This document shows positions 5,840 through 50,057 of a stretch of DNA of 52,559 bases, in pieces. Location: positions 1-52,559 of the IMG/VR virus record IMGVR_UViG_3300032516_000038; one strand, written 5' to 3'. A model generated the notes under the pieces. That model did no database searches, was not told the DNA's origin, and saw only the letters and a list, made by a program, of their open reading frames with translations. The stretch's first letter is position 1, and each line of letters begins with the position of its first letter. This stretch comes from a virus. The translations under genes and the position numbers were made by a program.

Positions 5840-6121
5840 TCAAAGGCTCTTATCCTTGAGTATCTGAGGTAGCAGGTCCACGCGGAATGCAGCTTCGTTA
5901 GAGAATGTGGGCTCATCAGCCCCGTGTTCTATTTCATTGTAGAACACAGAGTCCCCTACTACCTCGTAGGTTTCCGGGTCCAGGGTTACGTCGAGTATCA
6001 TGGTGTTCTTCCTTCTGAGCACTAGCAACGTAGCCACCAGCTTACCATCCTCTGGGTTGATGGACATTGAGAGCTCCACCTTACTGACGTTCGGGTGTTT
6101 CACTAGGTCTGTGAGCTTCAT
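5840..6121 (-). CDS. Hypothetical beta-rich protein
   Basis: 93 residues with ATG at 6121 behind AGGGGGGTTAGAAGA. Alternating strands (SKVELSMSINPEDGKLVATL, NTMILDVTLDPETYEVVGD) suggest a small beta-barrel or sheet. No motif is recognised. Confidence 0.6.
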   Translation of the reverse strand: MKLTDLVKHPNVSKVELSMSINPEDGKLVATLLVLRRKNTMILDVTLDPETYEVVGDSVFYNEIEHGADEPTFSNEAAFRVDLLPQILKDKSL

Positions 6122-6157
6122 TCTTCTAACCCCCCTAGTTCTGGTGTTTCTTTGAAC

Positions 6158-6499
6158 CTAGGAAGCGTAGTCTATCACACCCGCAGAAGCCCAGGCATCA
6201 AGAGCCTCATCGTTGTAGTGAAGCTCTATGAGCCACTCGCAGATGTCGAGGTCCTGCCATGCATAGAGCTCGGGGTTGTTGACTACCTCGGTTATCAGTT
6301 GCATGAGGTTCTTGAACGTCTGGTGCTTGAGGGTTCTGATGTGAATTTTGACCTGAGCTTCAAGGGGTTTGTCATATTCAACCGTGAGTGTCAGGTGTTC
6401 CCCTTTGACTTCCACTACCATCCGCTGGTTCGGATCCCGAGTAGATTGTTTCTCGTTAGCCCGTTGGATTAGCAGCTCTAGATCCTCTTTGAGCTCCAT
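6158..6499 (-). CDS. Hypothetical protein
   Basis: 113 residues; the ATG follows AAGGAGGTTGTGAAGA. The N-terminal half is a beta-rich charged region (MVVEVKGEHLTLTVEYDKPL) and the C-terminal half is helical with acidic and aromatic residues (LDICEWLIELHYNDEALDAW). The short gap upstream contains CTTAGATATGTCA, a match to the repeats near 8.9 kb. Confidence 0.6.
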   Translation of the reverse strand: MELKEDLELLIQRANEKQSTRDPNQRMVVEVKGEHLTLTVEYDKPLEAQVKIHIRTLKHQTFKNLMQLITEVVNNPELYAWQDLDICEWLIELHYNDEALDAWASAGVIDYAS

Positions 6500-6522
6500 T
6501 CTTCACAACCTCCTTAGATATG

Positions 6523-6990
6523 TCATTCTGGGAGCCTGTCTGTCACAACACAGGAGCCGACTGACCATCTTGTCCGTGGGCCTACAAGTTTCACCAGTCT
6601 TTGAGCCGCAGGCATTTCGAGTTGCATGACTGGTATATCCCTGTGGGCCTTGTCGAACCCTGTGATTGTCACAGTCTTAGGGATAAGACGACTCGGCCTT
6701 TCGGGCTTCCGCATACAGTCTTCACACGGAACCCTTGTGCTTCGATAGAACTCTAGCTGACCAAGGTTCAACAGACCCTTGATCCTCCGGTGTTCTTTGT
6801 CATGGAAGGCGTTTAGGAGCTCACCTTTTGACACATGCCTGCGTGTTTTGGCGCCGCAGTGTTTGCAGTGTTCTATAACCCAGAACTCTTTCTCTTCCGG
6901 GCCCTTGATAATCGTGGTTACTAGATCCTCGAGCTCTTCAAGCTCGGCCATCCATTCTGGGGTTGCCGGCTCTTTCTTCCTCGAACCCAT
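6523..6990 (-). CDS. Protein with a split CxxC zinc site
   Basis: 155 residues from ATG at 6990, chosen because AGGGGGGTGAGAAAACA lies immediately upstream. A longer frame begins at a TTG at 7044 but has no ribosome binding site. A CKHC pair (HCKHCGAKTRRH) and a later CEDC pair (VPCEDCMRKP) can chelate zinc; the region between is basic. Its C-terminal part (MQLEMPAAQRLVKLVGPRTR) is not recognised. It is the first gene of the left arm after the non-coding tract. Confidence 0.6.
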   Translation of the reverse strand: MGSRKKEPATPEWMAELEELEDLVTTIIKGPEEKEFWVIEHCKHCGAKTRRHVSKGELLNAFHDKEHRRIKGLLNLGQLEFYRSTRVPCEDCMRKPERPSRLIPKTVTITGFDKAHRDIPVMQLEMPAAQRLVKLVGPRTRWSVGSCVVTDRLPE

Positions 6991-7247
6991 TGTTTTCTCA
7001 CCCCCCTTCGTCGAAGCTCCAGAGCTCTTGTCCTTGCCATGCAATTGCTACTATCAGCATATCAAAACCCAATCACCTTTACTACTCCTTTAGAAACCCT
7101 ATTCTCCTTCCCTTTGGGTTCCCGATGATGAGAAACTCACGGATTCGTTCGGATTGTATGCCCTTACAGTTGGGCGGTTCACGGCTCACATCCTCGCGGC
7201 CCATTACAGCTGCCAGCCCATCATCCCTAGCAGGCGCTAGGATCTCA

Positions 7248-7500
7248 ATCTCCAGAGAAGTTGGATCGGATCGGTGCTATGATCCACCATCCCAGGGATG
7301 GCTTTGACATATCGGATGAGATCCCGAAGATGCTCCAGTGGATCCTAGGTTCTGAGCTCAAAACTACCTATCCCCAGACTCAAGAACCCACATCCTCAAT
7401 CCACGGGGATGGGTTGAGGGCCCACATCCTCCATCTCCAGATGGGTTGGCTCGGATCGGAGCTCCAATCCTCCATCTCGAGAAGAGTTGGCTCGGATTAG
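7248..7500. repeat. Degenerate direct repeats ATCTC-AGA-GTTGG-TCGGAT
   Basis: Three copies start near 7248, 7432 and 7474. Each has ATCTC followed by AGA, then GTTGG(A/C)TCGGAT(C/T). The second and third are spaced about 41 bases apart. Copies two and three continue similarly (GGAGCTCCAATCCTCC-type sequence). The pattern resembles iterons. Confidence 0.6.
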
Positions 7501-33828: not shown

Positions 33829-34079
33829 TAGGAATCCCTCCAAGCTGCCAGTATATATTCCTTCTCCTCTTCTTCCTTAACTATCTTCCGACGTTTGAGA
33901 TCACACATATACAGCGTACTCTCTGGGTCTCTCTCCAGAGCCTTTCTAAGCCCACCCCACGTAGCTCCAGAGTGTACCCCCATAGGGCCGATGACACACC
34001 AGATATAGCGAACTGGTTTAGGTAATCTACCCAAGTCTACTGCGTTCGGGATTTTTCCCAAGGCTGTAAGGACCCCCAA
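33792..34079 (-). CDS. Hypothetical protein after the polymerase
   Basis: Up to 95 residues from TTG at 34079; no ribosome binding site decides between that and a later TTG near 34031. The core (VRYIWCVIGPMGVHSGATWG GLRKALER...) and a charged helix (RRKIVKEEEEKEYILAAWRD) look like a real protein. It overlaps the polymerase gene at its start and the zinc-binding gene at its end. No family is recognised. Confidence 0.45.
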   Translation of the reverse strand: MGVLTALGKIPNAVDLGRLPKPVRYIWCVIGPMGVHSGATWGGLRKALERDPESTLYMCDLKRRKIVKEEEEKEYILAAWRDSYWEPEWNLDQEI

Positions 34080-36502
34080 TGTTTTCCGACTTTTATCTCA
34101 GTCACAATCGGTATGAAGAACCCCACCCCAAAGAGTTCATGCAGGGGGAGATTCTCTAGAACCTGTTTAATCCGTGGCACCCAGTAGTCTACGTGATCTT
34201 TTCTTATTGCCATAAGGAGAGCATCATGAATAATTGACAAGATCCTCATCGTCGGATGATACCTGTCAGGGAAGTCTCTATCGTGTTGTTCTTTAAGCTT
34301 AGAAGCTCCAAGGACTACAAAGTCTGTAGCTGTCCCTTGAACAGGAGCATTGATTGCCTGCCTTTGTGCTTCAGCTCTAACACCCCTATCAGGTGAATAA
34401 ATATCAGGTAGATGACGTATTCTACCTAAGATAGATCTAACATACCCTAACTTAGCTGCTACTTCCTTCTGTCTTTTATGCCAAGCCAGTAAGTCACGGT
34501 AGACTCCAAAGAACCTAGCCCTATACTCTTCAGCTTCTTCTTCTGTGAAGAAAGTTTCGAACTTAGTCAAAGCATATTCCTGAAAGCCCTTTGCACTCAT
34601 ACCATACAAGAAACCGAAGTTGACAGATTTAGCTTTTTTCCTCTGCTCCTTTGTAACCTTCTCTGCTGGTAATCCTAAAATAGACCTAGCTGTGGCCATG
34701 TGGATATCTTCACCAGAAAGAAAGGCCCTTATCATGTTCTTATCCCGTGCCATCTCCGCGGCAATCCTAAGCTCTATCTGGCTGAAGTCTGCTTCTACTA
34801 AGACCCACCCAGGTTCTGCTGTAATGATACCTCTGATCTTTGGATCTCTGGGTACCTGTTGTAGGTTAGGGTCATTACTTGAGAACCTACCAGTGACCAC
34901 TCGAGCTATCCTATACTTCGGATACATTCTGTTATTAGGTTTAATCTTGTCTTTCCATCCATCAAGAAAGAAACTCAGACTATGCTTGAACCCTCGAAAC
35001 TCCATGAGTAGTTCAATGAGTTGATGTTCATCACGAAGACGGATTAATGCTTTCTCGCTAGTACTCGGGGCACCCTTAGGAGTCTTTATTTCCACAGGGA
35101 GTCCAAGACCTTCTTCGCTATAGAGGATATTGGCTACCTGTTTAGGTGAACCCCAATTCACTACTTCAATACCCTGGAGTTCTCTAAAGGACTCAGGTAG
35201 AAGCCCATTCATCTTCTCGGTGACTGCTTCCATAGCTTTCCTGACCTTTATTCGAGCCTTGACTAGCCTTTTTGGTCCTATCTGAACCCCATTGGTTTCC
35301 ATGTCAGTTGCCAGCATTATCCCAGGCATTGAGATATGCTTGGCCAGGGCGGTTAGTCTAACATCTTCTCTAAGTTTTTTATTCATAGGCCCATAGAGAG
35401 ACCTAGTGTAGATAGCATCTTTGGCATTGTGCCTCATAAGGCGTCCTAGAGGGAAGTCCTTATTGAAGTTCTTGGAGTCATCTTTGTAGTTAGAAACACC
35501 TAGAAAGAGTTGCACTAGAAACTCTAGGTTGTGAGGCATGTTCTCGTCAAGCAAGTAACCTACAACCATGGTGTCGAAGTATATCTTTGGTACCCAAATC
35601 CCTGCAAGCAATCGGAGCCACACTAGGTCAAACTGACCGTTCTGGGTAACCCACCTTACCTTCGGGTCTTCTAGTATAGGTCTTAGAGCATCATACACTA
35701 TATTAGCTTTATGTTCCCATGGACTCTTGTGGTGCTCTAGAGGAATCACCCAGGCATGTCCTTCTTTGTCTGATAGAGCTATACAGTATATGGCAGAGTC
35801 AGGAGTTCTAGGGTCTAGGCCTGAAGTCTCTAGGTCAAGAGAGATCAGGTTAGATCCTTTAAGTGCTTTGACACACTCCTCGAGTGCATCTTCATCCCAT
35901 ACCCTTGTCATGGTCTTCTTGTATGATACAACGGGGTCTGGTGTTCCTTGGACAAGGCGGAAGAACTTGGTGATGTCCATCTCAACTAGGATAAGGTTCT
36001 TAGGATTGTAGAGTAGAGAGGCTGGATGAAGTGTGGCTATGACTGTCATACCATTGAGTTTCTGGATCTTTCCCCGCTCCTTGGTGATAGACGAATGGCC
36101 TCTACCTAAGAAACTCATAAGAGCAAACCTACCAAGGAGTAAAACATACTTCGGCTTGACTAACTCTATCTCTGCTTGAAGGTAACGACTGCAAGCTTTG
36201 ATCTCTTTGTTGGTCGGATCACGATTTTCAGGAGGTCTACACTTAACCACATTGGTGATATAAACCTCGTCTCGGGTAACCCCCATGCTAGAGAACGCCT
36301 GGTCTAAGATCTTACCCGCGGATCCACTGAATGGTTTCTCTATCTCATCTTCACGTTTACCTGGAGCCTCTCCAATGACCATGACCTCACACGGTACCGG
36401 TCCTCTGCCTATCAGGCATACACATTGAGCAGTTTCACCGAGTACACAGTCATCACAGTCCGGGTTTCTGAGTGTGAGCCACGCCCTGGTCAGGGTACTC
36501 AA
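34037..36502 (-). CDS. Uracil-DNA glycosylase / DNA polymerase I fusion
   Basis: 821 residues. Residues 1-185 are a family-4 uracil-DNA glycosylase: Cys16, Cys19, Cys88 and Cys104 fit the 4Fe-4S site, with GEAPGKRED (44-52) and HPASLL (159-164). Residues about 215-370 are a 3'-5' exonuclease (D223, E225, D292, D362). The rest is family A polymerase: motif A VEADFSQIELR (D572), O-helix RKKAKSVNFGFLYG (R621, K625, F629, Y633), motif C HDA (759-761) where HDE is usual. It has no 5'-3' nuclease domain. It is probably the replicative polymerase. It starts at TTG 36502 inside the deaminase gene. Confidence 0.93.
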   Translation of the reverse strand: MSTLTRAWLTLRNPDCDDCVLGETAQCVCLIGRGPVPCEVMVIGEAPGKREDEIEKPFSGSAGKILDQAFSSMGVTRDEVYITNVVKCRPPENRDPTNKEIKACSRYLQAEIELVKPKYVLLLGRFALMSFLGRGHSSITKERGKIQKLNGMTVIATLHPASLLYNPKNLILVEMDITKFFRLVQGTPDPVVSYKKTMTRVWDEDALEECVKALKGSNLISLDLETSGLDPRTPDSAIYCIALSDKEGHAWVIPLEHHKSPWEHKANIVYDALRPILEDPKVRWVTQNGQFDLVWLRLLAGIWVPKIYFDTMVVGYLLDENMPHNLEFLVQLFLGVSNYKDDSKNFNKDFPLGRLMRHNAKDAIYTRSLYGPMNKKLREDVRLTALAKHISMPGIMLATDMETNGVQIGPKRLVKARIKVRKAMEAVTEKMNGLLPESFRELQGIEVVNWGSPKQVANILYSEEGLGLPVEIKTPKGAPSTSEKALIRLRDEHQLIELLMEFRGFKHSLSFFLDGWKDKIKPNNRMYPKYRIARVVTGRFSSNDPNLQQVPRDPKIRGIITAEPGWVLVEADFSQIELRIAAEMARDKNMIRAFLSGEDIHMATARSILGLPAEKVTKEQRKKAKSVNFGFLYGMSAKGFQEYALTKFETFFTEEEAEEYRARFFGVYRDLLAWHKRQKEVAAKLGYVRSILGRIRHLPDIYSPDRGVRAEAQRQAINAPVQGTATDFVVLGASKLKEQHDRDFPDRYHPTMRILSIIHDALLMAIRKDHVDYWVPRIKQVLENLPLHELFGVGFFIPIVTEIKVGKHWGSLQPWEKSRTQ

Positions 36503-36917
36503 AGGCTACCTTGGCCTCCTCTAAAAGAGTATAACTAGGTGTCCAAGACGAGTAGGAGCCCATAGCTCCAGGAGGTATGACCACCCTTACTATTCCCGCA
36601 TTGATGATTAGTTTGATACAGGTAGGGCAGGGAACATGGGTGCAGTAGAGACTAGCCCCTTTCGTGGACAATCCTTCTTTGGCTGCAAAGGCTATCGCAT
36701 TGGCCTCGGCGTGGGATGTGCGAACACAATGGTCATTCTCTATCTGACAACCTACGTCGAGACAATGGGGCATACCAGAGGGTGACCCATTGTAGCCCGT
36801 GGAGATGACGTGGCTGTCTCTAGCTATTACAGCTCCTACGTAGGCCTTATCACAGGTGCCTCTTGTAGCAAATACTCGGGCAACTTCCATCAGAATATGA
36901 TCCCTGGTAGGTCTCAC
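36453..36917 (-). CDS. dCMP deaminase
   Basis: 154 residues from GTG at 36917, chosen because AGGAGGAGTGCAA lies upstream and because a promoter occupies 36940-36968 inside the longer frame. Zinc and proton-shuttle residues: H69-A-E71 (SHAEANAIA) and C97/C100 (PCPTC). A second Cys/His set (about 52-64) fits the extra structural zinc of dCMP deaminases. It turns dCMP into dUMP. It overlaps the polymerase start by 50 bases. Confidence 0.93.
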   Translation of the reverse strand: MRPTRDHILMEVARVFATRGTCDKAYVGAVIARDSHVISTGYNGSPSGMPHCLDVGCQIENDHCVRTSHAEANAIAFAAKEGLSTKGASLYCTHVPCPTCIKLIINAGIVRVVIPPGAMGSYSSWTPSYTLLEEAKVAFEYPDQGVAHTQKPGL

Positions 36918-36939
36918 TTGCACTCCTCCTCTTACATCT

Positions 36940-36968
36940 ATTATACCATACCGGGTTAGTCTTGTCAA
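36940..36968 (-). promoter_or_regulatory. Leftward promoter for deaminase and polymerase
   Basis: TTGACA (36963-36968), 17 bases, TATAAT (36940-36945) on the minus strand, with ATGG just before the -10 box. It lies directly after the stop of the 36971 gene and gives a leader of about 16 bases before the GTG at 36917. Confidence 0.9.
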
Positions 36969-36970
36969 AC

Positions 36971-37384
36971 CTAATGTATCGTTCCTCGAAACACGAACTC
37001 GGGACCTGTATCTCTTAACTTGTAAGTTATCTTCCCACCACCCCACTCCTCCCTGTGGTCTTTGATAACCTTTCTCGCAAGTACCTTAGCTCCCTCTTTA
37101 TTAAGAGCATATAAGCTCCCGAACCAGAGATACCTACCACCCTCAAACCTGATATTCACCACGAAGTTATTCATGATGGTTCTATCAGAGATCTCGTCAC
37201 GCTGGTCTTCTTCTCCGATGAGATTCTGTGGTAATCCATTTGAGAGTAATATCCAGCTTTTAGTCACTCGTTCAACGGCGAAGTAGTAAGGACGTGGATC
37301 ACCTGGACCTCTCTCCTCTTGTTTCAGTCTTTCGATAAGCTCCTGCATCGCTATAGTCCCCGGAAGTCTAAGATATACCTTCAC
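36971..37384 (-). CDS. Hypothetical protein
   Basis: 137 residues from GTG at 37384 with AAGGAGTGTTCTAAA before it. It is beta-rich then helical (NNFVVNIRFEGGRYLWFGSL, NKEGAKVLARKVIKDHREEW). Sandwiched between nucleotide-metabolism genes, it may contribute to that pathway, but no motif supports a reaction. Confidence 0.55.
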   Translation of the reverse strand: MKVYLRLPGTIAMQELIERLKQEERGPGDPRPYYFAVERVTKSWILLSNGLPQNLIGEEDQRDEISDRTIMNNFVVNIRFEGGRYLWFGSLYALNKEGAKVLARKVIKDHREEWGGGKITYKLRDTGPEFVFRGTIH

Positions 37385-37385
37385 T

Positions 37386-38078
37386 TTAGAACACTCCTTC
37401 AGCATCCTTCTTGAACATATGAAGCGACCCTATCCAATGAGTGAAGTTTCCCACAGGAAGATCTGCTTCGTTTGCCACATAGCGGAGAAGTTTCATGGCC
37501 ATCCAGATGTCGTTCTCGAAGTGGGTTACTAGATCTGCCGAGCGTTGTAGGTAGGTCATATGGAGTTCCCCATCTCTCAGGATAAACCAATAACCTAGAG
37601 AGCAGGGAATTCTATTGTAACCTCCCATAGATAAAACATCTTCAATAGGATTCCATACACTCATGAATAACTGTCGAGACTCCGGCCGAAGTCGAAGCTC
37701 TTTTATTACATCTCCAGCACTGTGGTGATAAAACCTATCAGCGTAGGTGTAAGAGAACTTACCATGCAACCTAAGGAATTGTCTCCAGACTTCTTTACGA
37801 AGTTTCCATGCCTCACCCGGGTTTGGTGGTTTTACTCCCTTTAGACCCACCACTCTCTCTTGCCACTCTGCGTCAGCCCAAGGTTGAGTGGGATGAAGGT
37901 CACCAAGCATAGCACCTGTTACCGTGTATATGTAGTTTTGAAGTTCTAAAGTGTCATAGTTAGGATCATCCCTTACTACCACATCTTGGTATGTGTCGGG
38001 ATGGACTCTGATACCCATCTCGGCTACATCACGTTTGATCTCAGAGAGAGCCTCTCCAAAGTTATTATAGATCCTCAT
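37386..38078 (-). CDS. Thymidylate-synthase-fold enzyme, dCMP hydroxymethylase-type
   Basis: 230 residues; AAGGGAGGTAGACGAG precedes the ATG. The core matches thymidylate synthases: catalytic Cys159 (RIPCSLGYW), R179-S-A-D182 (QRSAD), and H220 (GSLHMF) with the family spacing (C+20, then +30). The residue at the base-selecting position (E. coli Asn177) is Asp190, as in dCMP hydroxymethylases. It should therefore use dCMP with methylene-tetrahydrofolate. It is short for the family (usual about 245-265), with a Phe in place of the Tyr of the HxY motif. Confidence 0.82.
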   Translation of the reverse strand: MRIYNNFGEALSEIKRDVAEMGIRVHPDTYQDVVVRDDPNYDTLELQNYIYTVTGAMLGDLHPTQPWADAEWQERVVGLKGVKPPNPGEAWKLRKEVWRQFLRLHGKFSYTYADRFYHHSAGDVIKELRLRPESRQLFMSVWNPIEDVLSMGGYNRIPCSLGYWFILRDGELHMTYLQRSADLVTHFENDIWMAMKLLRYVANEADLPVGNFTHWIGSLHMFKKDAEGVF

Positions 38079-38292
38079 CTCGTCTACCTCCCTTGACTAA
38101 TCCTACAACCCATGTCTGGCCTTTCTTGTCAGACACCTGTTTAGTTTCGATCACAATGCAGTTGGCCATGCGTCCAGAACACGTAGCTTCGAAATACTCA
38201 AGGGCTTCCCTGTAACTCCTAGCCGCGCACTTACAGTGTTGCCTGCAGGCTCCTGTCCGATCGATCCCCGTAAATAGATAGTGGGTCGCCAC
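38065..38292 (-). CDS. Small Cys-rich hypothetical protein
   Basis: 75 residues with a GTG start behind AAGGAGGAAATGTA. The cysteines CRQHCKC (residues 16-22) and two later Cys may bind metal. The chain (YLFTGIDRTG, SYREALEYFEATCSGRM, then a beta-hairpin CIVIETKQVSDKKGQTWVVG) looks like a small alpha/beta domain. It overlaps the next gene by 14 bases. No family is recognised. Confidence 0.55.
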   Translation of the reverse strand: MATHYLFTGIDRTGACRQHCKCAARSYREALEYFEATCSGRMANCIVIETKQVSDKKGQTWVVGLVKGGRRDEDL

Positions 38293-38304
38293 TACATTTC
38301 CTCC

Positions 38305-39195
38305 TTATCTAAACCCTTTTCGTTCAAAGTAACCTTTCTCAAAATCAGCCATGTCTACATACGGCAAGCTTAGGTCCTTAGTAGCAGGATGATTACTGCC
38401 TATAGCTTCCTCTCCTCTCGCCATCTTGTAAGCTTTAGTAGCCCTTCGCTGAGTCTTGAAGCTTTGATACTTAGGGTCTGGAGCGGCAAAAGAATCTCCA
38501 TACCTTTTAAGAGCCTTGTCCTGCCACTTAGTGAATACCTTAGTTCCTTCTTCACGAGCTTTCAGTAGTCTCTGGATCTCTTCTTCCCCATGGGCTAGGA
38601 AGAGATAGAGAGGAGTCGTGACCATCCCCTGAAACATAGAGGAGGAATTCCAGTAGACTCTAACATCACTAACCCTGAAACCCAAGAAACTTCCCACAGT
38701 CTTGAGAAAGACATGGGCGAAGATAAGGTCTACACCCCAGCGGGAAGTAACCTCATTAGCCCGGGTGAATACTTCTGCCTCCCACCCCTGACTTCTAGAG
38801 AACCTGACACAGATAGCTAGGAGACAAGCCCCAAGCCTACTATCTCTAACCTTGAAAGGCATAGCAATATCGGGCACATACTGCTTGCCTCTCTTACCTT
38901 GTCTGAAGTATTGGAGTCTGTGGATAAACTTTACGAATTCCACAGGGTCGAAGTAGAGTCGCATGAGCATACTCCACTTGGTCTTCGTATATCCGAAGTC
39001 TAGTAGTTCCATCGCTGTCTCTGCAGTTTCTGATACGATAGTGTTGTGGAAGCTATGAAGAGATACCCCAGGTCTCTGGAAGTTAACTGGACTAGGTTCC
39101 CCATACCTCGCCAGGGACTCTTCATCGTGAAAGAACATGCGATCATTTGTTTTCTTCCATACTTCATCTAGGTCTTGCCCTTTCACATAAAGCAC
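38305..39195 (-). CDS. Second, divergent thymidylate-synthase-fold protein
   Basis: 296 residues with a GTG start behind AGAGGAGTGGGTACTAA. The segment LGACLLAICVRF (C124) followed at 21 residues by R145-A-N-E148 and at +8 by D156 (TSRWGVDLIF) superposes on the catalytic Cys, Arg-Ser-x-Asp and Asn/Asp177 positions of thymidylate synthase. The His of HxY is a Ser (SSSMF, 184-188). It lies three genes from the first family member. It may act on another pyrimidine or a different transfer; the loss of His is unusual. Confidence 0.65.
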   Translation of the reverse strand: MLYVKGQDLDEVWKKTNDRMFFHDEESLARYGEPSPVNFQRPGVSLHSFHNTIVSETAETAMELLDFGYTKTKWSMLMRLYFDPVEFVKFIHRLQYFRQGKRGKQYVPDIAMPFKVRDSRLGACLLAICVRFSRSQGWEAEVFTRANEVTSRWGVDLIFAHVFLKTVGSFLGFRVSDVRVYWNSSSMFQGMVTTPLYLFLAHGEEEIQRLLKAREEGTKVFTKWQDKALKRYGDSFAAPDPKYQSFKTQRRATKAYKMARGEEAIGSNHPATKDLSLPYVDMADFEKGYFERKGFR

Positions 39196-39639
39196 TTAGT
39201 ACCCACTCCTCTGGCGGAATCGGTTTACTTGACCCTTTTGGGTATACATCTGCCATATCCACGAGGCAATCTCTTCAGGTGTATGAGTATCTTGGAAGGG
39301 AAGAAGAAGATGCCTCAAATAGAAATGGAACCCATCTATGATCTCTTCCCAGTAATGTTGTTCATCCGTCAGCATATGGGTAGCTTTCCAAGGCTTGTTC
39401 TTGAGGCTGTTGTTAGCCTCTCCCAACTCGTCGGTGATACGACCAACAGACTCTTTCAGGTACCTTTGCCACTCTAGGTCGTCTATGTCAAAGAGCCGGG
39501 CAGGTCTAGGGTGTCCATTCTTGGCTTCAATCTTATGATACTTACTCTCCAGATCCCACTGGAAGCGGAGTATCTCCACCAGCGTGTCCTGACCCGGCTC
39601 CAGTTTCAGAGGAACCATATCCGATACGTTGACCATCAC
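39196..39639 (-). CDS. All-alpha dUTPase/dCTPase-like pyrophosphohydrolase
   Basis: 147 residues. ITDELGEANNSL (E71, E74) and HYWEEIIDGFHFYL (E98, E99, D102) are the paired metal-binding helices of dimeric dUTPases, the fold of T4 gp56 dCTPase-dUTPase, with an intervening KPWKATHML. It should split dNTP to dNMP and pyrophosphate. It starts at GTG 39639 or ATG 39636, and overlaps the kinase gene by 98 bases. In context it would supply dCMP/dUMP to the two thymidylate-synthase-fold enzymes. Confidence 0.78.
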   Translation of the reverse strand: MMVNVSDMVPLKLEPGQDTLVEILRFQWDLESKYHKIEAKNGHPRPARLFDIDDLEWQRYLKESVGRITDELGEANNSLKNKPWKATHMLTDEQHYWEEIIDGFHFYLRHLLLPFQDTHTPEEIASWIWQMYTQKGQVNRFRQRSGY

Positions 39640-40243
39640 GGCTCATCTCCCTCGAGATATCTCTGGCCTTCCGCATGTAGTCAGCTCGACGCTCGTATAT
39701 TTCTCTCCCTATAGAGAGATACTGCTTGAGATGATATACGATACCATCGAACTGCTGCTTCTGGAGTGGAGGAGATTGGTCAATATCCCATGAGTAAACC
39801 ATGCCGTCCCAGAAGTAATCTTCATACTTCCTCATTTCCTCGTGATATAAGAGCCTTGCCTTGAGTACGACGTTTATGTCAAACTGATGCTCACTTGCAA
39901 GAAACGTCTGACTGAGTTTATCGGAAGACCTACTACAGAGGATCATGAATGGCCGATGGTCTTTAAGACCCTCCATGATGGCCTGGAGTTCACCGTCTGT
40001 AAAGTAACTATCAGGCCTCCCTGTGGCTCTATTGTAAACTATTTCAGAGAATAAGATGCGGTCGTAGATGTTGTAGAGGGTTTCATGTGGCCTTTTCACG
40101 AGGAACTCATCGGCTATCTTTACTACCATCTCACGACAGTGCCCGGGAGACCTACCCTGATACACTAAGTCTGGGATCTCCTCTGTCAGTCTCCGAACCA
40201 GAGAAGTCTTACCTGTGTTGTCAGTTCCCTCAACGATTATCAC
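39542..40243 (-). CDS. Deoxynucleoside monophosphate (thymidylate-type) kinase
   Basis: 233 residues with a GTG start behind AGGAGGAATAGCAGG. The P-loop is GTDNTGKT (6-13) and the NMP-binding DR motif is D60-R61 (IYDRILFSEIVYNR), both typical of thymidylate kinases. The C-terminal 50 residues are a basic then Gly/Ser-rich tail not seen in standard enzymes, partly in the overlap with the next gene. It should phosphorylate the dNMP products of the neighbouring enzymes. Confidence 0.8.
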   Translation of the reverse strand: MIIVEGTDNTGKTSLVRRLTEEIPDLVYQGRSPGHCREMVVKIADEFLVKRPHETLYNIYDRILFSEIVYNRATGRPDSYFTDGELQAIMEGLKDHRPFMILCSRSSDKLSQTFLASEHQFDINVVLKARLLYHEEMRKYEDYFWDGMVYSWDIDQSPPLQKQQFDGIVYHLKQYLSIGREIYERRADYMRKARDISREMSRDGQRIGYGSSETGAGSGHAGGDTPLPVGSGE

Positions 40244-40247
40244 CCTG

Positions 40248-40628
40248 CTATTCCTCCTTCTTAGGACTCATGGTATCTTCTAGATTGAACTCACTCTCAA
40301 ACCCTGTCTTGAGACGAAGCTTGAACCTACCTTCTCCTGTAGCCTCTGAGTCTATGATAGCCTTGAAGTTACCAGGAACTATCCTTCCTTGTATCCAGAG
40401 CTCCAGAGTCTTTCCATCCTTACTTTCTTTCACTTCCCAGCGTCTATGTGCATCCCCCCATGACAGGCTAGCCACATAGTGTAACCCGTAGCCTCCAATC
40501 ACACTACTTATAATGATTACCAGTTCCTGCGGACCGAGGAATACCAGGCATAAACCAATCACGCCAACTATCAAGGACCAGATCGGAAAGGTTTTGCTTC
40601 GCAGCAAGTGCTTGATAAACTCTATCAT
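40248..40628 (-). CDS. Two-span membrane protein
   Basis: 126 residues; GGGAGGGGTACCGTAG precedes the ATG. Two hydrophobic spans are at about 14-31 (FPIWSLIVGVIGLCLVFLG) and 35-52 (ELVIIISSVIGGYGLHYVAS), followed by a soluble beta-rich C-terminal domain (TLELWIQGRIVPGNFKAIID). It overlaps the 3' end of the helicase gene by 125 bases, an unusually long overlap. Its function is unknown. Confidence 0.65.
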   Translation of the reverse strand: MIEFIKHLLRSKTFPIWSLIVGVIGLCLVFLGPQELVIIISSVIGGYGLHYVASLSWGDAHRRWEVKESKDGKTLELWIQGRIVPGNFKAIIDSEATGEGRFKLRLKTGFESEFNLEDTMSPKKEE

Positions 40629-41985
40629 CTACGGTACCCCTCCCTACTAAGTGCAGATATGTAACCTTCTGCGTTTGCCCGTGCCTATGGATGCGATCAC
40701 AGCTCTGGATGTAGTGATCTAACCTATAGTCTACACTCTGGAAAATCATTGTAGACGCAGCGGTTAGGTCAATACCAAGAGCTGAGGCGATCTGGATAAT
40801 CATAATCTGATACCTCGGGTTGCTCTGGAATACTTTCCTTTTCTTGTCCCTAAGTTCACCAGGGACATCCCCATAGATCGTGAGGACCTCCATACTCTTA
40901 GCCCTAAACCTCTTCCTGAGTTCCATGAGTTCCCACAGGAATGTGCATACTATAACCACTTTCTGTCCGTTCTCCACCAAGTCACCAACTAGTTCAACAC
41001 TAGCGTCTAGTTTCTCACTCCCCACTTGGTGGATAGTACCCATTACGTCCTTGACAAAACCACTAGTGATCTGCTGGAGCCTCATAAGTTGAGTTAAGAC
41101 TATCTGACCTATAGCTACCTTGTCCTTCTGGCTTTCCTCAATGTATGCTATGGCATCCCGGGCCATCTCGTCGTAGATTCTTCTAGTAGAAGGTAACAAG
41201 TCAATGGGGATATACTGATAGACCTTTTCAGGTAGTTTAAGAGCCTTCTCTTTTGTGATCCGAAAGATGAGAGGTTCTATCTTCTTCCTGAGCTGCTTAC
41301 TATTCCTGAACCCTAGTATCTCTTTACCTAGATAGCCACCAAAGATTGCGTATGTGTGTCGGAAGAAAGTCCACGAAGTTCCGAAGATACTTTCATCATA
41401 GAACTTGAATGGAGAGAAGTGATCTAGTTGGTTCTTAGGTTGAGGTGTACCAGAGAGACCTATACGGAATTGGGCCATGTGTCTGAGTTCATGACACAAC
41501 CTAGATCTCTTGGCCTTGTAAGACTTGATATAATGAACTTCATCTACCATGACTCCCTGTGGTTCCCAGTCAATCAAGTCTCCCATTAAGAGGATGGCAG
41601 ACTCGTAGTTGACTAGGATCCAGGTAAGTTTAAGTTCAGGTTCAGGTGCTGCCGCGATGGCTACTAGTTGTGCCTCTCGTTGACGAGTTGTCCCAGTTAA
41701 CCTGTGGACAACGTAAGGAATATTCTCAGGAGTATGTTTGGCTATCTCATCTTCCCATACACCTAGAGGCGTGATAGGGGCTATTACCAGGATGCGGTAC
41801 CAACCGTGTTTGAGGAACATGATACAGGCTGCGTCTATGGCTACCTTAGTCTTGCCTGTGCCCGGGTCTAGGTATAGACCAAACCCCCCATTACGAGCGA
41901 GGGCCCCCATACATTTCTTTAGGGCCCTTCGCTGGAAGGGATAGGGCTTAGTCTTATACCTATATTTAATCGCTTTCCCCTTCAA
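40504..41985 (-). CDS. SNF2-type superfamily 2 helicase
   Basis: 493 residues from TTG at 41985 (weak AAGGCGGG upstream, so the start is uncertain). Motif I DPGTGKTK (40-47), motif II VDEVH (147-151, DEVH), motif III LSGTP (177-181), motif V/VI GIDLTAAS... and CDRIHRHGQTQ place it among SWI/SNF-like phage helicases that remodel branched DNA or replication forks. The C-terminal 40 residues extend over the next gene. It belongs to the replication block. Confidence 0.9.
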   Translation of the reverse strand: MKGKAIKYRYKTKPYPFQRRALKKCMGALARNGGFGLYLDPGTGKTKVAIDAACIMFLKHGWYRILVIAPITPLGVWEDEIAKHTPENIPYVVHRLTGTTRQREAQLVAIAAAPEPELKLTWILVNYESAILLMGDLIDWEPQGVMVDEVHYIKSYKAKRSRLCHELRHMAQFRIGLSGTPQPKNQLDHFSPFKFYDESIFGTSWTFFRHTYAIFGGYLGKEILGFRNSKQLRKKIEPLIFRITKEKALKLPEKVYQYIPIDLLPSTRRIYDEMARDAIAYIEESQKDKVAIGQIVLTQLMRLQQITSGFVKDVMGTIHQVGSEKLDASVELVGDLVENGQKVVIVCTFLWELMELRKRFRAKSMEVLTIYGDVPGELRDKKRKVFQSNPRYQIMIIQIASALGIDLTAASTMIFQSVDYRLDHYIQSCDRIHRHGQTQKVTYLHLVGRGTVDDRVYQALAAKQNLSDLVLDSWRDWFMPGIPRSAGTGNHYK

Positions 41986-46016: not shown

Positions 46017-46045
46017 ATTTTACATAAACCTAATCCTTATGTCAA
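46017..46045 (-). promoter_or_regulatory. Leftward sigma-70-type promoter
   Basis: TTGACA (46040-46045), 17 bases, TAAAAT (46017-46022) on the minus strand. The TGA stop of the sigma-factor gene (46042-46044) lies inside the -35 box. Confidence 0.9.
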
Positions 46046-46692
46046 CTCACATTCTCCTGACCTAGCAAACCAATTCTCAGAGTGTGAAGGGCCTCTTTCA
46101 AGAGTCGAGATACATGACTTTGACTAATTCCTAGAGTTAAACCAACTTTTGTTTGATTCCCATCCTTAAGGTAGTATTCTTCAACAAGGTAACGTTCACG
46201 TTCAGGTAACTCCTCTATCAACGCCAACATCCTTTCTATGTCGAGCCCTGTATCAAAATCCACGGTGTAGGGTATTGTCTCTCCCAGTAACAGGGGACGG
46301 CGCCCGTTACTTCGTTGTTGATTGATAACAGGTTCATCTATGGAGAACCAAGACAGACTACCCGTGTGCTTTTCTAGACCAACATCGCGTATTACGTGGC
46401 CGAGATCATTATCCAGGACTATACCGTAGAAGGTGATAAACGCACTTTTACTGACATCATAATCCCTAACAGCATCCATAAAGGCTATACCTAATACACC
46501 CTCGGGATCATCGAAATGGTAAGACCTGCGTACTGGGTATGGAGCATTGTTTCTCCAGCTCCAGAATTTCCTATAGCTGAACTTCTTCATTCCCTCCCAC
46601 AACTTCACCAACGCTTCCTCTGAACCCCCCTGAGCCAGCACAGCTAACTCATTCATCCGCCTGGTGTTTGCTTCTCTCGTAGCTTTGTCCAC
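46042..46692 (-). CDS. RNA polymerase sigma factor, sigma-70 family
   Basis: 216 residues from GTG at 46692, preceded by GAGGAGGCAGGTTCGA; an upstream GTG at 46716 has no site. The region-2-like core is LGIAFMDAVRDYDVSKSAFI (about 67-86) with FITFYGIVLDNDLGHVIRD; the region-4-like C-terminus is LIEELPERERYLVEEYYLKD then NQTKVGLTLGISQSHVSRLL, a helix-turn-helix. The intervening region is short, as in sporulation-type and phage sigmas. It should redirect host RNA polymerase to phage promoters. It has its own promoter (46746-46774). Confidence 0.85.
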   Translation of the reverse strand: MDKATREANTRRMNELAVLAQGGSEEALVKLWEGMKKFSYRKFWSWRNNAPYPVRRSYHFDDPEGVLGIAFMDAVRDYDVSKSAFITFYGIVLDNDLGHVIRDVGLEKHTGSLSWFSIDEPVINQQRSNGRRPLLLGETIPYTVDFDTGLDIERMLALIEELPERERYLVEEYYLKDGNQTKVGLTLGISQSHVSRLLKEALHTLRIGLLGQENVS

Positions 46693-46745
46693 TCGAACCT
46701 GCCTCCTCTTCCCCACATACTAGTCATTTCTTCCTTTCCATGTCA

Positions 46746-49348: not shown

Positions 49349-49500
49349 AGGAGGAAGATAACCTGAGAGTTCTACTCAAAGTTCCGGCATTGATTATTGA
49401 AGAAAAGCCGGTGTTTACAATAGAAGATAAAGCTGTCAAGCAGCTCGCTCAGATGTTGAGGACCTTGTTCAAGAAACTTAAGGAGGGGGAACCAAAGTGA
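49345..49500 (+). CDS. Small hypothetical protein
   Basis: 51 residues from ATG at 49345, in GGAGGGGAACCAAA-ATGA context. The sequence (NLRVLLKVPALIIEEKPVFT, VKQLAQMLRTLFKKLKEGEP) is small, amphipathic and basic at the end. It ends EGEPK, nearly repeating the end of the previous gene, and its own stop overlaps the GTG of the HD gene. Confidence 0.55.
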   Translation: MKEEDNLRVLLKVPALIIEEKPVFTIEDKAVKQLAQMLRTLFKKLKEGEPK

Positions 49501-50057
49501 ACGACAAAGGCCAGTTGTATTCTATCAAAGCCCGGCAGTTGAAGAGGTATGCACGAGAGAATATCCACAACACTGAACTGAGGGAATGGGCTATCGCCTC
49601 GATCGGTACCCTGCCGAGGGCCATCTTCGAACGAGATCTCAGTGAGGGCCCCCTACAGTACCAGAAAGCAGGGGGTTTAATCAACCACCTACTCGCCACA
49701 GGTAGTCTAGCGGCTACGTTCGCGGAATGTATCGCCCCCGAAGACAAGGTCCTAAGGGATCTCTGTCTAACCGCTGGCATAATGCATGACATATTCGTCT
49801 TCGGAACTAAAGGGACGAGCGAGGGACCTCAGGAGAACCACCCCTTGTATGTAGGACAGTATCTTGGCAAAGGTGAGGTCCCGGTCTACGTATCAGCAGT
49901 TCTCGGGATTGTGGCCGTACACGAGGGAGTAGACGGCCCTATCGAGACCAAGACGAGGAGTAGGACCATGGCGGGTATCATCGTCCATCTTGCGGATCGG
50001 GCCACCATGCGTCCTTGGATCGAGATAGATGTGCCGATGTTGAGAGGAGCAAAGTAA
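49497..50057 (+). CDS. HD-domain phosphohydrolase
   Basis: 186 residues with a GTG start behind AAGGAGGGGGAACCAAA. Metal ligands: H64 (LINHLLATG), H97-D98 (AGIMHDIF), H115 (NHPLY) and D167 (HLADRAT), in HD-superfamily order. It could act on nucleotides or cyclic signalling molecules; the substrate is not visible. The family also includes dNTP hydrolases and nucleotidases, which would fit the nucleotide genes elsewhere. Confidence 0.78.
   Translation: MNDKGQLYSIKARQLKRYARENIHNTELREWAIASIGTLPRAIFERDLSEGPLQYQKAGGLINHLLATGSLAATFAECIAPEDKVLRDLCLTAGIMHDIFVFGTKGTSEGPQENHPLYVGQYLGKGEVPVYVSAVLGIVAVHEGVDGPIETKTRSRTMAGIIVHLADRATMRPWIEIDVPMLRGAK

Follow-up and report, generated by a model that had tools for sequence, protein, structure and literature searches.

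Why would a phage encode, one beside the other, two proteins related to thymidylate synthase (TS)? This question is raised by IMG/VR virus record IMGVR_UViG_3300032516_000038, a stretch of 52,559 nucleotides (hereafter the window). Its minus strand carries the genes for TS1 (37386..38078; 230 amino acid residues), which matches Pfam Thymidylat_synt (1.6e-15), and TS2 (38305..39195; 296 residues), a divergent protein assigned to the TS fold on the basis of an AF2 model, Foldseek, and reciprocal profiles. A first-pass annotation had described both as TS-fold enzymes with Asp at the base-selecting position and, together with the neighboring genes, as the hydroxymethylcytosine set of phage T4. On balance, we consider it probable that TS1 and TS2 make up a two-protein system by which a cytosine deoxynucleotide is modified at C5 prior to its incorporation into phage DNA.

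Active-site residues of TS1

Both open reading frames (ORFs) were found where the first-pass annotation had placed them, and TS1 contains the residues named there, namely, C159 (codon at 37602-37604), R179 (37542-37544), D182 (37533-37535), D190 (37509-37511), and H220 (37419-37421), as read from the sequence of the minus strand. The spacings from C159 to R179 (20), from R179 to D190 (11), and from D190 to H220 (30) are identical to those of C146, R166, N177, and H207 in Escherichia coli ThyA, with which TS1 also shares its predicted fold and the Cys nucleophile. By contrast, ThyA has Asn177 and His147, whereas TS1 has D190 at the former position and Ser at the latter, and the window TS1 is without the C-terminal region of ThyA. 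Among 30 proteins of the TS1 clade, Asp at the N177 position (D190) and Ser or Thr at the H147 position (S/T160) are both universal (30/30), as are C159, R179, D182 (the Asp of the RSxD motif), and H220. The best match of TS1 among PDB sequences is 1njc, the N229D mutant of L. casei TS with dCMP, which has Asp at the same base-selecting position.

The MetaGPA study found that residues 177 and 147 best separated modified-cytosine contigs from unmodified ones and that TS genes lay beside those for dCMP deaminase and pyrophosphohydrolase in the modified contigs (PMC8670742). Asp at position 177 switches TS to dCMP (PMC8670742, PMC5175136), and the role of the base-selecting Asp was confirmed by work on MilA and on T4 dCMP hydroxymethylase (dCH) (PMC5175136; PMC6400193). 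Judged by its residues, TS1 is a cytosine-type enzyme. GenBank records nevertheless annotate TS1 as thymidylate synthase, and the deaminase and dUTPase encoded in its neighborhood also feed the dTMP route. Ordinary dTMP synthesis by TS1 despite its Asp is very improbable, given the invariant Asp and Ser/Thr at the two positions and the co-occurrence of true TS genes with the pair. At L008, one of the further loci described below, a proper TS with both Asn177 and His147 is encoded by a third gene beside TS1 and serves as an internal control; at two other loci (L045 and L054), an annotated FAD-dependent TS is in the same gene run as the pair. TS1 is therefore not needed for dTMP at these three loci.

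Structural neighbors and phylogeny of TS1

A Foldseek search with the AF2 model of TS1 (pLDDT 91.6) gave AfhB, a 5-hydroxy-dCMP synthase of the RB69 type, as the best match (9iqc/9iqu; 4e-15), followed by the CMP hydroxymethylase MilA (5jnh, 5b6d; 2e-14), with the TS N229D mutant close behind. AfhB/RB69-type enzymes were also the second best of all PDB sequences in a profile search with TS1 (3.4e-17), and 5-hydroxy-dCMP synthases are TS homologs (PMC13390438). These matches would suit a flavin-dependent 5-hydroxy-dCMP synthase as in RB69-like phages, with 5-hydroxycytosine or a derivative of it as the modified base. We regard this as unlikely, because MilA and TS score almost equally well (E-values within about tenfold of that for AfhB), the RB69 and HY126 hydroxylases have RSxN where TS1 (30/30), T4 gp42, and TS have RSxD, TS1 forms a separate clade, and no arabinosyltransferase set was seen. 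Since TS1 keeps this folate-site Asp, its sequence leans, and only leans, toward 5-hydroxymethyl-dCMP over 5-hydroxy-dCMP as the product; 5-hydroxymethyl-, 5-hydroxy-, and 5-methyl-dCMP as products are not separable by sequence.

A phylogenetic tree of 30 TS1 proteins and nine other TS-superfamily proteins shows that TS1 is a single clade (98/98) apart from ThyA and from the others with Asp177. T4 gp42 and the RB69 5-hydroxy-dCMP synthase are long branches of uncertain place outside this clade, and TS1 did not group with T4 gp42 in the tree. T4 gp42 resembles TS1 in the TS fold, the Cys, the Arg-Ser-x-Asp motif, Asp at 177, His207, and Thr/Ser at 147; it differs in its phylogenetic position and in the second arginine of the SRR motif, which is Gln or Lys in TS1. 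The Lys, found in 8/30 TS1 proteins, is a point of likeness to MilA, as is the Asp at the cytosine-selecting position. Unlike MilA, however, TS1 keeps Ser at position 167 (29/30), a mark of deoxyribonucleotide preference (PMC5175136). In view of the tree and of the Foldseek search, in which AfhB and MilA were best, we no longer take TS1 to be simply T4 gp42. For the same reasons, and with no glycosyltransferase among the window ORFs scanned, the earlier label of a T4 hydroxymethylcytosine set was too specific. By its sequence features, TS1 is a cytosine-type TS-superfamily enzyme and a new member of an already known class.

Predicted fold and conserved residues of TS2

TS2 had no sequence match in Pfam, among PDB sequences, or in profile searches. 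Its AF2 model (pLDDT 86.7, pTM 0.86) was informative: all 17 Foldseek matches to the PDB at E ≤ 0.001 belong to the TS superfamily, with MilA first (2.6e-7), AfhB at 1.2e-6, and T4 dCH at 6e-5. Against viral models, unnamed homologs came first and were followed by TS and dCMP hydroxymethylases. In HMMER searches of 2352 ORFs, the weak matches of the TS2 profile (E < 0.01) outside its own family were TS1 proteins only, and the TS1 profile found TS2 in return. Direct hhalign comparison of the two families paired C124 with C159 and R145 with R179 at an E-value of 0.011 and a probability of 4; because this score is weak, homology was settled by the reciprocal HMMER profiles instead. One TS2 carries the independent GenBank annotation "pyrimidine hmase synthase," and PHROG 13667 and 34294, both of unassigned function, are TS2 homologs. 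The model and the reciprocal profiles place TS2 in the TS fold, in a new subfamily that is distinct, widely conserved, and without described function. To this extent, the first-pass annotation was right in guessing at a different role for the second paralog.

To assess conservation, 30 TS2 proteins were compared; they are diverse and come from actinophages, proteobacterial phages, and gut-type phages, with 17-50% identity to the window TS2 among the first seven aligned. Only Y81 (minus-strand codon at 38953-38955), C124 (38824-38826), R145 (38761-38763), and D156 (38728-38730) of the 296 residues are invariant (30/30), which speaks against a chance motif, and position 73 holds either Lys or Arg in every member. 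The claim that TS2 repeats the layout of TS1 stands for the presence of C124, R145, E148, and D156 and for the Arg-Asp spacing, which is 11 in 30/30. It does not extend to the Cys-Arg spacing, which is 21 in the window TS2 and ranges from 19 to 26 across the family. Asn was not found at the base-selecting position of either protein. Across the 30 members, TS2 has no conserved equivalent of His207, as had been noticed for the window protein, or of Tyr209; around the Glu58 helix, the best Glu column reaches 50%, and there is no conserved Arg126/127 pair. In T4 dCH, arginines of the Arg126/127 type reach the site of the partner subunit (PMC6400193). A TS2 homodimer would thus be without them, and the invariant R135 of TS1 could supply one such arginine in a TS1:TS2 pair.

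The loss of several TS active-site residues, and a translational coupling that suits a stoichiometric subunit, would fit a different arrangement, in which the phage makes plain 5-hydroxymethylcytosine (or 5-methylcytosine), as in T4 or Xp12, and TS2 is a noncatalytic structural or regulatory partner. We rank this idea low and think it quite unlikely, because the catalytic Cys, the phosphate-binding Arg, the base-selecting Asp, and Tyr81 are invariant, which would not be expected in a dead partner. From its conserved residues, TS2 is probably catalytic.

Linkage and distribution of the TS2-TS1 pair

Beyond the window, 46 loci contain TS2. In 45/46 of them, TS2 is directly upstream of TS1, which follows on the same strand at a distance of <1 kb, and in 21 loci the two genes overlap or are no more than 10 b apart; the gap in the window is 226 b. 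At three loci of gut-type phages (L003, L004, and L008), TS1 is preceded by two TS2 paralogs, both of which have the Cys, Arg, and Asp, and the true TS of L008 makes four TS-fold genes in a row there. No TS2 was found at other TS-superfamily loci in the stretches searched of T4, RB69, E. coli, Achromobacter, Pseudomonas PaMx28, Acinetobacter, Manatee MW202665, and Riparian. This extra TS-fold protein thus distinguishes the cassette from the T4 and RB69 stretches searched, and no TS2 partner is known for MilA.

The order kinase, pyrophosphohydrolase, TS2, TS1, (deaminase), and Pol I recurs in Muddy (gp49-44), PotPie, Azira, and Zuko as well as in Shrew, NoShow, Opt-155, and PMBT14. The cassette is carried by phages of Gordonia, Mycobacterium, Streptomyces, Curtobacterium, Pseudomonas, Serratia, and Brevundimonas, by a phage assigned to Desulfofustis, and by gut phages. 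Muddy (L038) is a therapeutic Mycobacterium phage in which the TS1/TS2 pair is gp46-gp47, with gp47 annotated as hypothetical. Altogether, TS2 is present in 106 phage records (85 from actinophages, 18 mainly from proteobacterial phages, and three from gut phages) and in ~30 metagenomic loci, and its gene is called hypothetical or is unannotated in nearly all of the 106 records. The wider family was reached through an alignment of gut-type TS2 proteins: a scan of viral contigs gave no matches to TS1 and only one locus (L001) for window-type TS2, GTDB genomes contained no window-type TS2, and the phage collection held no close relative of the window.

Proposed pathway and alternatives

TS1 would be a dCMP 5-modifying enzyme that retains the TS active site. 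Cys159 would attack C6 of the presumed substrate dCMP while Asp190 holds the cytosine; Arg179/Ser180 and Arg135 would bind the phosphate, and Glu74, Trp98, and Asp182 would be kept for the cofactor. This cofactor is most likely methylene-tetrahydrofolate, which would give 5-hydroxymethyl-dCMP. TS2 would be an ancient, active paralog keeping only the covalent-activation core of Cys124, Arg145, and Asp156, together with Tyr81, and it most likely works with TS1, either in a putative hetero-oligomer or by acting after TS1 on the same nucleotide.

The neighboring genes are those that the first-pass annotation had recognized, all on the minus strand. A thymidylate-kinase-like P-loop kinase (39542..40243; PHROG 761, 3.1e-9), which keeps its cassette position in Zuko, PotPie, Muddy, Serratia Opt-155, and PMBT14, is a candidate for phosphorylating the modified dNMP and, with host enzymes, would raise it to the triphosphate. 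An all-alpha nucleotide pyrophosphohydrolase (39196..39639; PHROG 12184, 2.6e-20; Pfam dUTPase_2, 4.3e-6), which is of the dUTPase_2 type and possibly a dCTPase, and a dCMP deaminase (36453..37046; Pfam, 8.8e-23; PHROG 174, 1.7e-43) would drain ordinary dCTP and dCMP. The dCTPase, kinase, and deaminase assignments are family-level matches (Pfam, PHROG). The T4 hydroxymethylcytosine pathway has the same kinds of companions, namely, an all-alpha NTP pyrophosphohydrolase, a dNMP kinase, and a dCMP deaminase; it differs in its glucosyltransferase, which was not found among the window ORFs scanned. Neither was any other glycosyltransferase or a carbamoyltransferase, with small ORFs partly scanned and the record possibly incomplete, so the base would stay small or TS2 itself would be the tailoring enzyme. 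The cassette fits the production of 5-substituted dCMP, and a 5-substituted cytosine pathway is likely; from this, we infer a modified base in virion DNA.

Several points weigh against this interpretation. The structure closest to TS1 in the model comparison is a flavin-type dCMP hydroxylase, AfhB, and not a folate enzyme. The invariant E74 and W98 of TS1 may correspond to the catalytic Glu (E58) and Trp80 of TS, a mapping that relies partly on the order of secondary-structure elements: E74 is within model helix 67-79, the counterpart of the catalytic-Glu helix, and sequence alignment does not place it there. The TM-scores of the top Foldseek matches of TS2 are moderate (0.40-0.45). In L037, a possibly incomplete contig of 61 kb, a dCMP deaminase gene directly follows TS2 at 5998-7294, and no PF00303 gene is present anywhere, which argues against an obligate pair. 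Finally, we found in the literature no biochemical or DNA data for any TS2-family member, nor any account of DNA modification in phages that carry TS2; the literature covered excludes the 2025 work on 5-hydroxycytosine biosynthesis, which may mention TS2.

Because the equivalents of Glu58, His207, and Arg126/127 are not conserved in TS2, TS-type folate chemistry seems to have been lost and covalent activation kept. A two-step hypermodification is accordingly conceivable, in which TS1 makes 5-hydroxymethyl-dCMP and TS2, without folate, converts it to an unknown 5-(substituted methyl)cytosine: the Cys would add to C6, water would be expelled to give an exocyclic methylene, and another nucleophile would add. 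The residues that TS2 retains, the tandem TS2 copies of the gut-type phages, which fit stepwise chemistry, and the lack of a separate glycosyl- or carbamoyltransferase among the ORFs scanned speak for this route; the lack of a known candidate donor and the occurrence of TS2 without TS1 in L037 speak against it. We hold it to be possible, if somewhat doubtful. More speculative is the proposal that TS2 represents a new class of TS-fold enzyme that uses folate-free Cys-C6 activation and makes, with TS1, a previously unknown cytosine modification in ~100 sequenced phages, among them cultured actinophages and Muddy.

A phage gene filed as hypothetical thus proves to encode a TS-fold protein whose active site is conserved and of the cytosine type, and every examined locus except one has a second enzyme of this kind beside it. 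Should the favored two-protein system be correct, modified cytosine, for which there seems to have been no search so far, is present in many actinophages, among them one that has been given to patients. This would affect sequencing, phage engineering, restriction, and CRISPR and Type IV defence, and the TS fold could gain a new chemistry. As cultured members exist, modified cytosine is readily testable.

Other genes of the cassette and the window

The conserved cassette ends with a family A DNA polymerase with an N-terminal uracil-DNA glycosylase (UDG) domain (34037..36502, minus strand), which gave Pfam E-values of 5.9e-34 for UDG (residues 32-169), 1.7e-26 for the exonuclease (exo) domain, and 2.4e-89 for DNA_pol_A. 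With genes for a dUTPase-like protein and a dCMP deaminase close by, this fusion suggests active exclusion of uracil. By eye, the UDG-polymerase fusion is apparently also present in the L001 relative. The upstream end of the cassette is an SNF2-type DNA helicase (40504..41985, minus strand; Pfam SNF2-rel_dom, 5.8e-20; PHROG 62, 1.4e-109).

Two minus-strand ORFs had no relatives in any of the loci compared: one of 144 residues (36971..37405) between TS1 and the deaminase, and one of 75 residues (38065..38292) that lies between TS2 and TS1 and overlaps the TS1 start. The latter occupies the TS2-TS1 gap, where the genes of many relatives overlap directly. Elsewhere, the window encodes a sigma-70 region 4 protein (46042-46716, minus strand) and an HD-domain protein (49497-50057, plus strand), and its flanks contain many short ORFs.

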